Assembly: GCF_019703855.1 (NCBI RefSeq)
Contig: NZ_AP024086.1
Span: 806,001 to 870,000, forward strand
Length of the DNA: 64,000 bases
Source of the DNA: Desulfomarina profundi
GTDB taxonomy: Bacteria; Desulfobacterota; Desulfobulbia; Desulfobulbales; Desulfocapsaceae
Direction: 5' to 3'
Part shown: one piece after another, positions 27,703-34,484 of the stretch
Numbering within the stretch: position 1 is the stretch's first letter
Layout of the letters: every line of letters starts with the position of its first letter
The notes under the pieces: model-generated
Seen by the model: only the letters and a program-made list of their open reading frames with translations
Database searches by the model: none
What the model was told of the DNA's origin: nothing
Translations under genes and position numbers: made by a program

Positions 27703-28598
27703 TACAACGCTGCCTCTCTCTTATCCTTTTCCTTCTGTTCCAGATGGCTGTCGCCGGTCAGGTCTGTGCCGGGGGACAGGAGGAGATGGCCGGGGGGCAT
27801 GACCACCATGCCATGGAGAAAATGGCTGAAGCCTCCCCGGCTGATCAGAACGTAAACCCGGATAAGTGGGTCACGGAAAAGGGTGGGGAGATTCTTCCCC
27901 TTGGGCTCAGCTTTACAGATGAAACCGGAAAAACACGTACCCTTGGTTCCATAATAGACAGGCCCACCATTATCCTTCCCATTTATTTTTACTGCCCCGG
28001 AATATGCAGCCTGAACCTGGCCCATCTTGCAGAGGCTCTCAGGGATTTAAGCCATATTCCCGGCAGGGATTACCGGGTAATCGCCTTCAGCTTCAATGAG
28101 CTTGAAAGCAGCGATGACGCAGCCCGCGCAAAGGAAAACTATTTGAAAATTGTCGGAGATGGTTTTCCCGCATCGGAGTGGTTTTTTCTGACCGGAACAA
28201 AAGAAACTATCCGCCGGTTGACCGATTCCCTCGGGTTTCGTTTCAAGCGACTGACTGATTCCACCTTTATCCATCCCTCGACTCTGGTCATTACTGGACG
28301 TGACGGGAAAATTATCCGTTATGTTTACGGTTCCTTTCTCGCCGGGGATATTGATATGGCGCTGCTGGATGCGAAAAAGGGCACCCCGTCGTTTTCCGTC
28401 CGCCGACTTCTGGCCTTCTGTCTGAGTTATGATCCGGACAAAAACAAATCTCTTTTCCAGATTATTAAACTGTCTGTTCTGGCGGTTTTTGCTGTCGGTC
28501 TTGGTCTGCTCTTTTTTGTGTTCAGAAAGAAAGGTCGACGACAGGCAAAGGCCGGTGGAGATGATTTGGGAGAAGGGAGGGAGCAAAAAAATGAATAA
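27699..28598 (+). CDS. SCO1/SenC-family copper chaperone
   Basis: 299 residues. A signal peptide (CLSLILFLLFQMAVAGQVCAG) is followed by a His/Met-rich segment (GGHDHHAMEKM) and a thioredoxin fold with the copper-binding CPGIC (about residues 98-102) and the distal His in TFIHPSTLV, then a C-terminal membrane helix (IIKLSVLAVFAVGLGLLFFVF). Sco proteins load the CuA site of subunit II. The ATG is inside the stop of the DOMON gene, and its own stop overlaps coxA, so all are one operon. Confidence 0.9.
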   Translation: MIQRCLSLILFLLFQMAVAGQVCAGGQEEMAGGHDHHAMEKMAEASPADQNVNPDKWVTEKGGEILPLGLSFTDETGKTRTLGSIIDRPTIILPIYFYCPGICSLNLAHLAEALRDLSHIPGRDYRVIAFSFNELESSDDAARAKENYLKIVGDGFPASEWFFLTGTKETIRRLTDSLGFRFKRLTDSTFIHPSTLVITGRDGKIIRYVYGSFLAGDIDMALLDAKKGTPSFSVRRLLAFCLSYDPDKNKSLFQIIKLSVLAVFAVGLGLLFFVFRKKGRRQAKAGGDDLGEGREQKNE

Positions 28599-30218
28599 AT
28601 CCATTTCCTTTTATGATACGCCGTCACCCCCGGGATTAAAGGGTATCTGGGCCTGGCTGCTTACCCATGACCACAAGCGTCTTGGTCTTATGTATATGTG
28701 GGCTATTCTTTTCTGGTTTGTGCTGGCCATGTTTCTTGGCCTGCTTCTGCGGTTTGAACTGATGAGCCAGGGAAGAACGATCATGGGGCCGGAAGCGTAC
28801 AACTCCCTGTTTACTCTGCACGGGGTCATCATGATCTTTCTTTTCGTGATTCCTGCGATTCCGGCAATATTCGGCAATTTTTTCCTGCCCATCCAGTTGG
28901 GAACCGATGATGTTTTTTTCCCGAGACTGAACCTCTTCAGTTGGTATCTTTTTATGTTCGGTGGTCTTTTCGCCCTGATTTCCCTGTTCAGCGGGAGGGA
29001 TTTCCCGATACCGGCTGGACGTTTTATGTCCCCTTCAGTGTGGAGATCAATACCAATGTCAGTCTGACCGTTATGGCAGCCTTTACCCTTGGCATGTCTT
29101 CCATGCTGACCGGTCTTAATTTTGTCACAACCTTTCACCGCATGCGGGACAGGCGGATGGGGTTGATGCAGATTCCTCTCTTTACCTGGTCACTTTATGC
29201 TACGGCCTGGGTGCAGATTCTGGCGACCCCGGTCATATCCATTACTCTGCTGCTCGTGGTGGCCGAGCGATTATTTTCCATAGGCATTTTCGATCCGGAC
29301 AGGGGTGGGGATCCGATTCTTTATCAGCACCTGTTCTGGATGTACTCCCATCCGGCGGTGTATATCATGATCCTGCCGGGTATGGGTGTTATTTCGGAGA
29401 TCATTCCGGTTTTTTCCAGAAAGTCCATTTTCGGATACAAGGCGATTGTCTGGTCCTCCATGGCTATTGCCGTGGCCGGCTCCCTGGTCTGGGCCCATCA
29501 TATGTATACCAGTGGTATGAGTGATGTTTCGGTCTTTATCTTTTCCCTGCTCACCTTTCTGGTTGCCATACCGTCAGCGGTGAAGGTGTTCTCCTGGATT
29601 GCCACCATGTACAAGGGGTCCATTGAGATGACACCGCCCCTGCTCCTCTCTCTGATCTTTATCTACCTGTTCAGCGTGGGAGGTTTGACCGGGCTGGTGC
29701 TTGGCGCGGTGGGGACGGATATCCATGTCCACGATACTCAGTTTGTTGTTTCCCATTTCCACTTTGTCATGTTCGGTGGGACAGGGTTTGCCTTTTTTGC
29801 CGCACTGCATTTCTGGTGGCCGAAGATGTTCGGTATCATGTACGATTTTAAAAAGGCGTATATCGGCAGTGTCCTGGCGGCTGTTGGTTTTCTTTTTCAT
29901 TACGTGCCCATGTTTATTCTCGGGCTGCAGGGAATGCCACGGAGATATTATGATTATCTGCCGAAATATGAGACGGGTAATTTTCTTGCGGGTTTCGGAG
30001 CTATAATTCTCTGTGCCGGTATTCTTCTCATGTTCGTGAACCTGTTCATGAGTTTTAAAAAGCGTGTGCCTGCACCGGCCAATCCATGGGGAGGGACCAC
30101 TCTTGAATGGATGGTGCCATCACCTCCACCCATGCACAATTTCACAGAAACTCCTGAAATCAAAAGTTTTCCTTATGATTTTACTGCGATAGCCACAGAG
30201 ATGGAAAAGGAGGAATAG
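28591..30218 (+). CDS. Cytochrome c oxidase subunit I, A2-type (one frameshift)
   Basis: About 542 residues once one extra G is placed in GGGAGGG at 28993-28999; without it two overlapping frames result (ending about 29067 and starting 28941), the second carrying PDTGWTFYVPFS. The subunit holds heme a, heme a3 and CuB and reduces oxygen to water in the inner membrane. Helix VI reads MYSHPAVYIMILPGMG: the YSHPxVY motif marks A2-type heme-copper oxidases, which lack the helix VI glutamate. The HHMYTSGM and HVHDTQFVVSHFHFVMFGG segments are canonical. The start ATG overlaps the Sco stop. Confidence 0.9.
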
Positions 30219-30227
30219 AAAGACTCC

Positions 30228-30824
30228 ATGACACAAAAAATTGACAGGACAGGAGTGAAAATCGGGATGTGGCTGTTTCTCTATTCCGAGATTATTTTAT
30301 TCGGCGGTCTCTTCGTGCTTTATGGCGCCTATTTTTATGAATATTCGGAGTTCTTCTCCGAGGGTGGAAAGGAGCTGAACAGAATAATCGGCAGTATCAA
30401 TACCGTTGTTCTCCTGGTCTCAAGCTTTACCGTTGCCGCCTCCATTACCGCCATACAGTTACGGAGAAAAAAGCAGGCGGTGGGCCTGCTGCTCTTTTCT
30501 CTACTCTGTGGTGTTGTTTTTCTGGTGAACAAGTATTTTGAATGGGGCACGAAAATTCACCATGACATCTATCCCAATTCGGAAACCCTGACCTCAGGAG
30601 AGCCTGGTCTGAATATCTTTTTCGGACTCTACTATATTATCACCGGCCTGCACGGGCTCCATGTGATCATCGGTATGGTGCTGCTGTCAATCAGCCTGGT
30701 GCTGGTATTGAGGGGGAAAATTACGGAGACCAGGTTCGGAATGCTGGAGAACGCCGGCCTGTACTGGCATCTTGTCGATCTGATCTGGATCTTTGTTTTC
30801 CCCCTGTTCTATCTTGTTTTATAG
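30228..30824 (+). CDS. Heme-copper oxidase subunit III
   Basis: 198 residues with five or so hydrophobic helices, typical for a bacterial subunit III of the aa3/caa3 class. MWLFLYSEIILFGGLFVLYGAYFYEY, SSFTVAASITAIQL, FFGLYYIITGLHGLHVIIGMVLL (the conserved helix) and GLYWHLVDLIWIFVFPLFYL are visible. It carries no cofactor and stabilises proton transfer. It sits 9 bp after coxA. Confidence 0.92.
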   Translation: MTQKIDRTGVKIGMWLFLYSEIILFGGLFVLYGAYFYEYSEFFSEGGKELNRIIGSINTVVLLVSSFTVAASITAIQLRRKKQAVGLLLFSLLCGVVFLVNKYFEWGTKIHHDIYPNSETLTSGEPGLNIFFGLYYIITGLHGLHVIIGMVLLSISLVLVLRGKITETRFGMLENAGLYWHLVDLIWIFVFPLFYLVL

Positions 30825-30838
30825 GAGACTGAGAATCT

Positions 30839-31126
30839 ATGGAAAAGGAAAAAGAGGTACATATCCTCAGTTATACAAAACTGGCCCTGGTTCTTGGGGT
30901 TCTCCTTCTGCTCACCGGGCTTACGGTGGGAGTATCCTATGTTGACATGGGCTTTTTCAATGTGCCCGTGGCCCTGGGAATAGCCTGTGTGAAGGTCAGT
31001 TTTGTTCTGCTGTTTTTCATGCATCTGAAGTATGAAGGCCCGATTATTTACCTGTCGTTTATCGGTACGGCCGGTTTTCTGATGATCATGATCGGTTTTG
31101 TTTTCTGGGATGTTGCATTCAGGTAA
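30839..31126 (+). CDS. Cytochrome c oxidase subunit IV-like membrane protein
   Basis: 95 residues with three hydrophobic segments (LVLGVLLLLTGLTVGVSYV, IACVKVSFVLLFFMHLKYE, AGFLMIMIGFVFWDV). The first half of the second segment, KVSFVLLFFMHLK, matches the bacterial subunit IV (CyoD/caa3 type) pattern. It lies 14 bp after subunit III. These small subunits aid assembly, and their role is otherwise unclear. Confidence 0.85.
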   Translation: MEKEKEVHILSYTKLALVLGVLLLLTGLTVGVSYVDMGFFNVPVALGIACVKVSFVLLFFMHLKYEGPIIYLSFIGTAGFLMIMIGFVFWDVAFR

Positions 31127-31139
31127 GAGGGAGAGATAG

Positions 31140-31730
31140 ATGACCCCTGTTGAAGGTGTGGATCAGGCATTTTGGTATATTCTCGGAATTTCCATTGTTC
31201 TGCTGTTTGGAATTACCGTTGTCATGGTCTATTTTGTCATACGATACAGACGAAGCAGGAATCCTGTTGCCTCGGATATCCGGGATAATTATGTCCTGGA
31301 AATTATCTGGACAATTATTCCTACACTCATTGCCCTGTCCATGTTTTACGTGGGCTGGAGTTCCTACATGGGGTTGCGGGATGTTCCGGAGGGCGCCCTT
31401 GAAATCGAAGTGTTAGCCCAGAAGTATTCCTGGATTTTTGTTTATGACAATGACAAGGAAACCGAAGATGAGTTGGTGGTTCCTGAGGGCCAGGCGATAA
31501 AACTCAATGTTTCCTCGCTTGATGTGCTGCACAGCCTTTACATCCCTGCATTTAGAATAAAAGTGGATGCGGTGAAGGGTATTAACACGTATGCCTGGTT
31601 TTATGCGGATAAGGTGGGTGAATATGATATCCAGTGTACGGAATACTGCGGGGTCGGTCATTCAGCCATGCTGGCGAAACTGCGGATTATTCCCCCGGAC
31701 GAGTTTGAGCAATGGCTTGAGGAAGAATAG
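31140..31730 (+). CDS. Cytochrome c oxidase subunit II (CuA)
   Basis: 196 residues. Two membrane helices (12-35 and 51-74) precede a periplasmic cupredoxin domain with complete CuA ligands: His131, Cys166, Glu168, Cys170, His174 and Met177 (in CTEYCGVGHSAM). No signal or C-terminal haem c domain follows, so an external cytochrome c or other donor is needed. Gene order is unusual: subunit II is last of the four, just before heme O synthase. Confidence 0.93.
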   Translation: MTPVEGVDQAFWYILGISIVLLFGITVVMVYFVIRYRRSRNPVASDIRDNYVLEIIWTIIPTLIALSMFYVGWSSYMGLRDVPEGALEIEVLAQKYSWIFVYDNDKETEDELVVPEGQAIKLNVSSLDVLHSLYIPAFRIKVDAVKGINTYAWFYADKVGEYDIQCTEYCGVGHSAMLAKLRIIPPDEFEQWLEEE

Positions 31731-31738
31731 GGGGAGCA

Positions 31739-32602
31739 ATGCGATTACCAGCCGGACTGCGTGCTTCAATGGATCTTGCCAAGATTGTTCTCTGTTCTCT
31801 CATTGGCTGTTCGGCCCTGTTCGGTTATTTCCTTGCCGCTTCTGATATTTCGGCCGGAGCTTTTATCACAGGTTTCGGTATCTTTTTTCTTGCCGCAGGT
31901 TGCGGAACACTCAACTCCATACAGGAACGCCATCTTGACAGGCTCTTTGTCCGAACGCGGAAAAGACCTCTGCCCGAAGGCCGGATAGGTGTGTCGTTCA
32001 GTTTTTTCCAGGCAATCGTGCTGTGGGTGGGCGGGATGCTTTTTCTCTGGTCTGTGTCGACCGATTTTCTACCCCTTTTTGTGTCTTTTCTGGCTGTTGT
32101 TCTCTATAACGGAGTATACACTCCCTTGAAACAGTTGACTGTCCTGGCGATATTCCCCGGTGCTGTCTGCGGCGCACTGCCTCCCTATATCGGCTGGCTC
32201 GCCGGTGGTGGAAAGCCACTTGCCTTTGAGGCACTTCTGCTCTTTTCTCTGCTGTTTCTCTGGCAGGTCCCCCATTTCTGGCTTATTCTTCTGCGCCATG
32301 GAGAGGATTATAAAAAAAATATCATCCCGAGTTTTTTTTCGATCTTCGGGGAAAAGGTGATTAAACGGCTTTTTGTGACCTGGATCGGCAGCCTGGCAGC
32401 GGTGATGATTCTCTTTACAGTACTGCCTGCAGGAAACGTTGTACGTTTTCTGGTAGTGCTGAACGGGCTTGCTCTTTTATCCTGTTTTTTTTCAGGGTTG
32501 ACCGGGAAGGGACCTCTGCGATATCGACAGCTTTTTGGAGTGCTGAATTTCTCTCTGCTCTTTCATATGGTGATAGTGTCTGTGGGAAACATTGTCTCGT
32601 GA
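31739..32602 (+). CDS. ctaB: Protoheme IX farnesyltransferase (heme O synthase)
   Basis: 287 residues of the UbiA prenyltransferase superfamily with about eight membrane helices. The first Asp-rich motif is replaced by N in CGTLNSIQERHLDRLFVRTRKRPLPEGRI, the form found in CtaB, and LWQVPHFWLILLRHGEDYKKNIIPSFF carries the second conserved region. It farnesylates haem b to haem O. No CtaA is in the window, so haem a may not be made, giving an o-type oxidase, unless CtaA is elsewhere. Confidence 0.9.
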   Translation: MRLPAGLRASMDLAKIVLCSLIGCSALFGYFLAASDISAGAFITGFGIFFLAAGCGTLNSIQERHLDRLFVRTRKRPLPEGRIGVSFSFFQAIVLWVGGMLFLWSVSTDFLPLFVSFLAVVLYNGVYTPLKQLTVLAIFPGAVCGALPPYIGWLAGGGKPLAFEALLLFSLLFLWQVPHFWLILLRHGEDYKKNIIPSFFSIFGEKVIKRLFVTWIGSLAAVMILFTVLPAGNVVRFLVVLNGLALLSCFFSGLTGKGPLRYRQLFGVLNFSLLFHMVIVSVGNIVS

Positions 32603-32734: not shown

Positions 32735-33244
32735 ATGATCAGTGAAAAAATAAACACGGCCATCAATGGTCAGATTAATGCGGAAATGTATTCATCCTAT
32801 CTCTACCTTTCCATGGCTACCTGGTTTGCGGAAAAAAGCCTCTCCGGGTTTGCCACCTGGATGCGCGCACAGGCACAGGAAGAGATGTTTCATGCGATGA
32901 AGATGCTTGACTATGTTCTGGAAAGAGGTGGCCATGTGGAGTATGCCGCTATTGATCAGCCGGAATGTAACTGGTCCACACCCCTGGAGGTTATGGAGGA
33001 GACGGCAAATCACGAAGCGAAGGTAACAGGACTTATCAATGATCTGGTTGATCTTGCCCTTGATGAACGTGATCATGCAGCCAATATCTTTCTGCAGTGG
33101 TTCGTGGCCGAACAGGTGGAGGAAGAGGCCTCGGTGGGTGAAATCGTTGACAGGATGAAAATGATAGGTGATGGAAGCCAGGGGCTTTTTGCCATGGATA
33201 TGGAGATGGGAAAAAGAGTTTATACACAGCCGACTGATGAATAG
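32735..33244 (+). CDS. ftn: Ferritin
   Basis: 169 residues, a four-helix bundle ferritin that stores Fe(III) in 24-mer shells and lowers Fenton chemistry. Ferroxidase ligands Glu17, Glu50 and His53 are at exact FtnA-like positions, and the HDERDHAANIFLQWFVAEQVEE segment carries the next Glu/Gln ligands. The C-terminus is slightly longer and ends in PTDE. It is followed at 55 bp by the selenoprotein gene and a shared terminator (33666-33700). Confidence 0.95.
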   Translation: MISEKINTAINGQINAEMYSSYLYLSMATWFAEKSLSGFATWMRAQAQEEMFHAMKMLDYVLERGGHVEYAAIDQPECNWSTPLEVMEETANHEAKVTGLINDLVDLALDERDHAANIFLQWFVAEQVEEEASVGEIVDRMKMIGDGSQGLFAMDMEMGKRVYTQPTDE

Positions 33245-33298: not shown

Positions 33299-33637
33299 AT
33301 GGCAATTGACTGGGCGTATATGCGTAAAGGGTGAGTTTCCTGTAAAAAAGCCTGGACGGCTTTTGATGAAAAAAAGATTGAGGTGTCGGAAGAAGTCAAT
33401 GCTGCAAAGGAGACCGTCAAAAGCGACGGTGCCTGGGAGCTGTTAAGCAGTGCGGAAAAAGTCTATGTGGCGAGTGGTAAAAAAATCCTGGAGTTTGATC
33501 CGGCAAGTGCTGACCGGGAAGAGCTGCTGAAAAAGGCCACAGGCAGAACCGGAAACCTGCGGGCGCCGACCCTGAGGAAAGGGAATGTATTTTATGTTGG
33601 GTATAATGAAGAAATGTATTCGACCCTGGTGAAATAG
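33299..33637 (+). CDS. ArsC-family selenoprotein (Sec at UGA codon 12)
   Basis: 112 residues if the in-frame TGA at 33332-33334 is read as selenocysteine. The N-terminus is MAIDWAYMRKG-U-VSCKKAW, so U replaces the first Cys of a CxxC-like redox motif (U-x-x-C) of a thioredoxin-fold ArsC/Spx-like protein; the C-terminal TGNLRAPTLRKGNVFYVGYNEEM matches the family's substrate loop with its cis-proline-type TxRxPT region. ATG 33299 has GGGAGAA upstream. The TGA is followed by a 7-bp hairpin with loop TGGAC at 33353-33357, fitting a bacterial SECIS. Without Sec, the ORF would start at 33383 and lose the active site. The likely role is a redox or metalloid-related enzyme; the substrate is unknown. 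Confidence 0.82.
33346..33364 (+). promoter_or_regulatory. Bacterial SECIS-like hairpin
   Basis: AAAAGCC (33346-33352) pairs with GGCTTTT (33358-33364) around a five-base loop TGGAC. It begins 11 bases after the UGA, and the loop G residues fall about 19-20 bases after it, within the reported spacing for SelB recognition. It is inside the coding frame, as in E. coli fdhF. Confidence 0.7.
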
Positions 33638-33709: not shown

Positions 33710-33870
33710 GATGATCTCGTAAAAAGTCGTTCAACGTTCTCAGATGGACTCTGGAAAAACTTCGATATACAAGGCGTGGCGGTGTCGTGTAAGCGCAGGC
33801 GTACATATAGTACGTCGAGCATTACACGATCACCCCACAACGCAGTAGATCGGAGTTTTTACGAGTCCAT
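33710..33870. mobile_element. MITE-like element, family A, copy 2
   Basis: About 160 bp, the reverse-complement counterpart of 8718-8876, with only a handful of differences visible. It is flanked by CATTCTT on both sides (33703-33709 and 33871-33877), which looks like a target-site duplication. It lies between the ferritin operon terminator and the 3' end of the peroxiredoxin gene. Confidence 0.88.
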
Positions 33871-33887
33871 CATTCTTAAGGAAAGTT

Positions 33888-34484
33888 TTAATCATCAGCG
33901 TGGGCACTGAGGTATTCGGCCACTCCTTCCGCAGTGGGCTTCATCGCCTCGTCTCCCTTGTTCCAGTTGGCCGGGCAGACTTCACCATGCTCTTCGGTAA
34001 ACTGCAGGGCATCCAGAACCCGAAGGGCTTCATCCACGTTTCGACCAAGAGGCAGGTCATTTACAACCTGATGCCTGACTATTCCTTCCCTGTCGATGAG
34101 AAAAAGACCGCGCAGGGCGATTCCCGCATCAAGAAGAACCTCGTAGGATTTTGAAATGGATTTATCAAGGTCCGCCACAAGGGGGTACTGAATATTGCCT
34201 ATTCCGCCCTCGTTGACCGGGGTGTTCTTCCAGGCAAGGTGGGAGAAATGAGAGTCGATGGAGATACCGATCAGCTGGCAGTTTCTCTCTTCAAACTGTT
34301 TTACGGCCTTGTTGAACGCCAGGATCTCAGAGGGACAGACGAAGGTAAAATCGAGGGGATAGAAAAAAAGGAGAACATATTTTCCTTTAAAATCAGAGAG
34401 TTTGAAATTTTCCTTGAATGAATTGTCTGCCAGTACGGCGTTTGCAGTAAAATCCGGGGCTTGTTGAGTGACTAGAAGGCTCAT
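33888..34484 (-). CDS. 2-Cys peroxiredoxin (AhpC/Prx family)
   Basis: 198 residues. Peroxidatic Cys in DFTFVCPSEI (about residue 51) and resolving Cys in GEVCPANW (about 171). Thr and Arg of the active site lie around PLDFTFVC and FLIDREG. It reduces peroxide, the product of the superoxide reductase encoded at 26483, and rubredoxin or thioredoxin may re-reduce it. The ribosome binding site AGGAG is 8 bp upstream. It has its own promoter, because a terminator separates it from the rubredoxin gene. Confidence 0.93.
   Translation of the reverse strand: MSLLVTQQAPDFTANAVLADNSFKENFKLSDFKGKYVLLFFYPLDFTFVCPSEILAFNKAVKQFEERNCQLIGISIDSHFSHLAWKNTPVNEGGIGNIQYPLVADLDKSISKSYEVLLDAGIALRGLFLIDREGIVRHQVVNDLPLGRNVDEALRVLDALQFTEEHGEVCPANWNKGDEAMKPTAEGVAEYLSAHADD

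Follow-up and report, generated by a model that had tools for sequence, protein, structure and literature searches.

A table published in 2006 lists ArsC-like selenoproteins in Desulfotalea psychrophila and Desulfuromonas acetoxidans (PMC1794560), and the 2008 Global Ocean Sampling survey includes an 'Arsenate reductase 2, UxxC'. A 2026 catalogue of prokaryotic selenoproteins gives the NCBIfam family NF041106 as 'Arsenate reductase-like protein, UxxC' and attributes it to the 2008 survey (PMC13188914). The gene analysed here lies at 33299-33637 on the plus strand of a 64,000-nucleotide stretch of the Desulfomarina profundi genome (the window), and is an ordinary member of this already catalogued selenoprotein family, which is common in sulfate-reducing bacteria. 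A preliminary description of the locus had regarded the protein as new-looking. This does not survive comparison with the record, since NF041106 is exactly this family and ArsC-like selenoproteins were in print by 2006. A literature search joining selenoprotein, arsenate reductase and Spx returned nothing. The gain from this locus is consequently modest, a well-documented extra member with SECIS covariation evidence in a family that is itself already catalogued.

The reading frame runs from ATG 33299 through TGA at 33332-33334 (codon 12, the U of U-V-S-C) to the TAG stop at 33635-33637, giving 112 codons plus stop in one frame, and every coordinate proposed beforehand proved right. A Shine-Dalgarno-like GAGGGAG was seen by eye a few bases 5' of the ATG. 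Read with TGA as selenocysteine (Sec), the product is 112 amino acids long (MAIDWAYMRKGUVSCKKAW...TGRTGNLRAPTLRKG...). With U written as C it matches NF041106 over model positions 1-107 of 107 at 128.3 bits against a cut-off of 85, far above its score for every other family, and a genome search recovers the same match with one TGA inside. The U/C-x-x-C motif that marks the family is present as UVSC, in which the partner Cys is codon 15 (TGT, 33341-33343); 44 of 45 aligned homologues keep this Cys, and its counterpart in Spx is the latter Cys of CxxC. Without recoding, the conventional open reading frame would be that from GTG 33383 to 33637, which encodes 84 amino acids and, as anticipated, lacks the active site and also most of the first helix. 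Ahead of the UGA, and again in the 3' portion of the gene, substitutions follow a codon pattern. Codons 13-28, which hold the hairpin discussed below, have more nonsynonymous than synonymous changes (37 to 13), and for these codons the substitution counts were not taken as evidence.

The in-frame TGA is widely shared. In an order-level search the gene was present in 84 of 146 sampled genomes, and of the 85 hits 80 had exactly one internal TGA and five had none, the latter all from one genus; no internal TAA or TAG was reported among the 85. In the family-level search 75 of 93 genomes gave a match, every one with a single TGA. Named relatives in a scan of the genome collection were mostly Desulfobulbaceae/Desulfocapsaceae, Desulforhopalus, Desulfopila and Desulfobulbus. 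Reading 81 loci in full (the window and 80 others) placed TGA at codon 12 in 78 and TGT or TGC in three, so that homologues do have Cys or Sec where the UGA had been proposed to stand in for the active-site Cys; the motif is UxxC in 77, UxxS in one and CxxC in all three Cys homologues. The UxxS homologue (UKSS, L160:3042-3365) comes from a Desulfobacterales MAG. Across 45 homologues W5, Y7, R9, C/U12, S14, G82, G85, L87, R88 and P90 are invariant. Conservation of the read-through frame in most genomes of the order puts it far outside what chance would produce. The competing view, that the UGA is a true stop, with the 84-residue frame from GTG 33383 as the real gene, or no gene at all, and the upstream part a relic or sequencing error, draws on the existence of that conventional frame and on the conceivability of base errors in an assembly that seems to carry one or more frameshifts close by, in cytochrome c oxidase subunit I. 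It was rejected as extremely improbable, given that W5, Y7, R9, K10 and G11, all ahead of the UGA, are kept in 42 to 45 of 45 homologues, that about 80 other genomes have TGA in this position, and that the shorter product would be without its catalytic centre. We hold with very high confidence, from sequence comparison, that UGA codon 12 is decoded as Sec and that the gene belongs to NF041106.

The genome is equipped for such decoding. Its single 4.3 Mb contig encodes selA (635 bits), selB (364 bits), two high-scoring selD genes (3598297 and 581421), each with one internal TGA, and one tRNA-Sec with a UCA anticodon (74.9 bits). The check for selA, selB, selC and selD that had been recommended thus found all of them, and selA, selB, selD and tRNA-Sec occur together, as expected of a bacterium that makes selenoproteins. 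SelB and tRNA-Sec would decode UGA codon 12 as Sec, directed by a hairpin about 18 nt downstream.

This hairpin, a bacterial SECIS element at 33346-33364 on the plus strand, folds as AAAAGCC[UGGAC]GGCUUUU, with a 7-bp stem, a 5-nt loop that begins 18 nt after the UGA, and a minimum free energy (MFE) of -7.8 kcal/mol. Published rules for bacterial SECIS elements ask for a stem of at least 4 bp, a loop of 3-9 nt with G in its first two positions, a distance of 16-37 nt after the UGA and an MFE of -7.5 or lower (PMC13188914); the hairpin conforms in stem, loop (G at position 2), spacing and energy. The perfect 7-bp stem, TGGAC loop and suitable distance first noted are all there, but chance could account for the stem by itself: when this stretch is recoded at random with synonymous codons, 39% of the versions give an equally long stem with G in the loop, and the single-gene fold z-score against dinucleotide shuffles is only -0.9, which is not significant. 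The single-gene hairpin was accordingly rejected as stand-alone evidence in favour of a family covariation test, and its significance comes from relatives rather than from the window gene alone. Twenty relatives carry the hairpin in the same register, and 97.9% of their helix cells are paired against 86.8% in shuffles, a comparison in which most rows were picked for their shared register, which favours pairing. Two-sided changes number 12 cells against 2.5 in shuffles, and none of 500 shuffles reaches 12. Given the register-based choice of rows, these compensatory changes are the stronger part of the test. The covariation score of 0.41 compares with 0.17, and a shift of one column reduces pairing to at most 67%. 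Conservation of the hairpin in relatives, which had been left to be checked, is thereby established. Elsewhere in the family the loop begins mainly at +18, +20 or +23, which suggests that the hairpin can shift between registers. A rule-conforming stem follows the UGA in 77 of 78 Sec genes, 67 of which also reach an MFE of -7.5 or lower, while among the three Cys genes two have no such stem and the third has one of only 4 bp, so that no G-loop stem longer than 4 bp occurs with Cys. An Rfam scan of the window produced nothing that reached a gathering score, an outcome that does not count against a bacterial SECIS.

Structure prediction gives an ArsC/Spx-like fold, nearest to Spx. The AlphaFold2 model, built with 45 homologues, has a mean pLDDT of 90.7, and Foldseek returns Spx as its best matches (E 5e-5). 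VIA-align gives Z-scores of 9.1 for Spx, 8 for YffB/ArsC-related proteins and 6.4 to 7.7 for arsenate reductases, several of which are too close to separate, with thioredoxin-like folds alone reaching 7 and the Spx score near that level. Spx also heads the sequence profile search (E 9e-5), its CxxC lining up with U12 and C15. Just before the cis-proline, where Spx has Arg, 43 of 45 homologues have Ala. ArsC also has a catalytic Arg before its cis-proline (R94 of R773 ArsC), a general correspondence rather than a residue-by-residue alignment with ArsC made here. With Ala in place of the Spx Arg, proteins of this family are unlikely to be arsenate reductases. A Sec-containing ArsC proper would be in keeping with a weak Pfam ArsC match (PF03960), with the ArsC structures in the fold lists, and with the one Sec form of ArsC (UxxS) known from ocean metagenomes; it is nonetheless highly improbable, as the Pfam score of 18.9 bits lies below the gathering cut-off of 24, Spx provides the better sequence and fold matches, the Arg shared by Spx and ArsC is replaced, and ars genes were not noted among the neighbour clusters. 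Arsenate reductase was rejected as the primary reading on the Pfam score, the nearness of Spx and the Ala before the cis-proline. Of the original assignment to the ArsC family, membership of the ArsC superfamily with a U-x-x-C motif stands, and identity as an arsenate reductase does not.

The closeness to Spx raises a different prospect, a redox-sensing regulator whose switch would be a selenenylsulfide instead of the CxxC disulfide. U12 and C15 align with the C10/C13 switch of Spx, the leading match by both profile and fold. We consider such a regulator unlikely, because the NCBIfam Spx/MgsR models score far below their cut-offs (TIGR01617 21.3 against 75 bits; PRK13344 19.6 against 152) and a Sec residue would suggest catalysis more than sensing. 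From sequence and model together, we infer a selenol/thiol oxidoreductase and not an arsenate reductase. The product would be a 112-residue thioredoxin-fold protein of ArsC/Spx type whose Sec, in the U-x-x-C active site, may attack a disulfide or other oxidised substrate. Cys15 would resolve the resulting selenenylsulfide, and a thioredoxin-type system could then re-reduce the protein.

What such an oxidoreductase might serve is hinted at by its neighbours. A ferritin gene (32735-33244, plus strand; NCBIfam non-heme ferritin match below cut-off) ends 54 bp upstream on the same strand, in agreement with the reported position downstream of ferritin, and the two genes are probably co-transcribed. 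Downstream lies a convergent 2-Cys peroxiredoxin gene (33888-34484, minus strand; NCBIfam PRK15000 259 bits, below its cut-off of 301). In 11 loci a ferritin gene precedes the NF041106 gene on the same strand, and in 12 a peroxiredoxin of the same protein cluster lies nearby. In some Desulfocapsa-type loci (L120, L125, L139) a SelD-type FAD oxidoreductase gene precedes the NF041106 gene, which is followed in turn by those for a rhodanese/ferritin-like protein, a PerR-like regulator and rubrerythrin, and the peroxiredoxin comes next after rubrerythrin in L120 and L139. Ferritin and peroxiredoxin here, with PerR, rubrerythrin and a putative Sec-rhodanese elsewhere, suggest a selenol/thiol redox role in oxygen or iron stress. 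By eye, Desulfobulbus-type loci have a BioF-like biotin-synthesis neighbour, and others ComM/YifB-like or arginine-synthesis genes. That neighbours differ among lineages indicates that the linkage is lineage-specific and weakens the case for stress defence, so that a role in oxygen, peroxide or iron-stress defence is put forward only tentatively. Equally tentative is the broader proposal that NF041106 may be a dedicated selenol-based part of the Desulfobulbales defence against oxygen, peroxide and iron stress, acting alongside ferritin, peroxiredoxin, PerR and rubrerythrin, with the putative Sec-rhodanese/ferritin-like fusion encoded directly beside it as a further partner in some lineages. 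The recurrence of ferritin, peroxiredoxin, PerR and rubrerythrin nevertheless provides a first lead to what the NF041106 family does.

Several features of these neighbourhoods deserve description in their own right. Directly downstream of the homologue in L146 (6336-7139) and L120 (1811-2623), and also in L114 and L125, a rhodanese domain is fused to a ferritin-like domain. At its rhodanese active site the fusion carries a TGA in frame (VY-U-HSGVRSK), the L139 version having Cys there (VYCHSG), and by its sequence it is apparently a second selenoprotein beside the NF041106 gene. UxxG Sec-rhodaneses are already catalogued. When the D. profundi genome was searched with the Sec-rhodanese protein, the best relative lay elsewhere and was without an internal TGA. 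Within the window, the intergenic region between the selenoprotein and peroxiredoxin genes contains a 162-bp element (33710-33871), most of which forms a single long imperfect palindrome (fold z -7.5). The genome has at least 40 copies of the element at 99-100% identity, a mobile repeat family that is MITE-like or of another type. A heme-copper oxidase set (cox subunits and heme o synthase, 28429-32602), in what is apparently a relative of sulfate reducers, adjoins ferritin and peroxiredoxin and is conserved upstream in several relatives. Its cytochrome c oxidase subunit I (28507-30212) is split over two frames, 28429-29067 and 28941-30218, with the break near 28900-29030. The subunit is intact in relative L088, and the split is an apparent frameshift, arising from an assembly indel or marking a pseudogene.

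Set against known systems, the protein is closest to NF041106 (ArsC_rel_Se_1, 'ArsC family (seleno)protein'), which it matches over its full length with the same UxxC Sec position and the same size. Nothing of substance is different: the window protein has W19 for the usual Gln, and its hairpin is shifted yet kept. The ArsC-like selenoproteins of Desulfotalea psychrophila and Desulfuromonas acetoxidans, likened here by description, come from a related host group and are ArsC-like redox selenoproteins (PMC1794560). Bacillus subtilis Spx (PDB 1z3e, 3ihq) has the same fold and CxxC position but differs in having Cys rather than Sec, in being a transcription regulator and in sharing only about 20 to 25% identity. 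With ArsC of the plasmid R773/E. coli type the superfamily fold is common to both, whereas the window protein has Ala for the Arg before the cis-proline, U-x-x-C for the single catalytic Cys and a sequence match that falls below cut-off.
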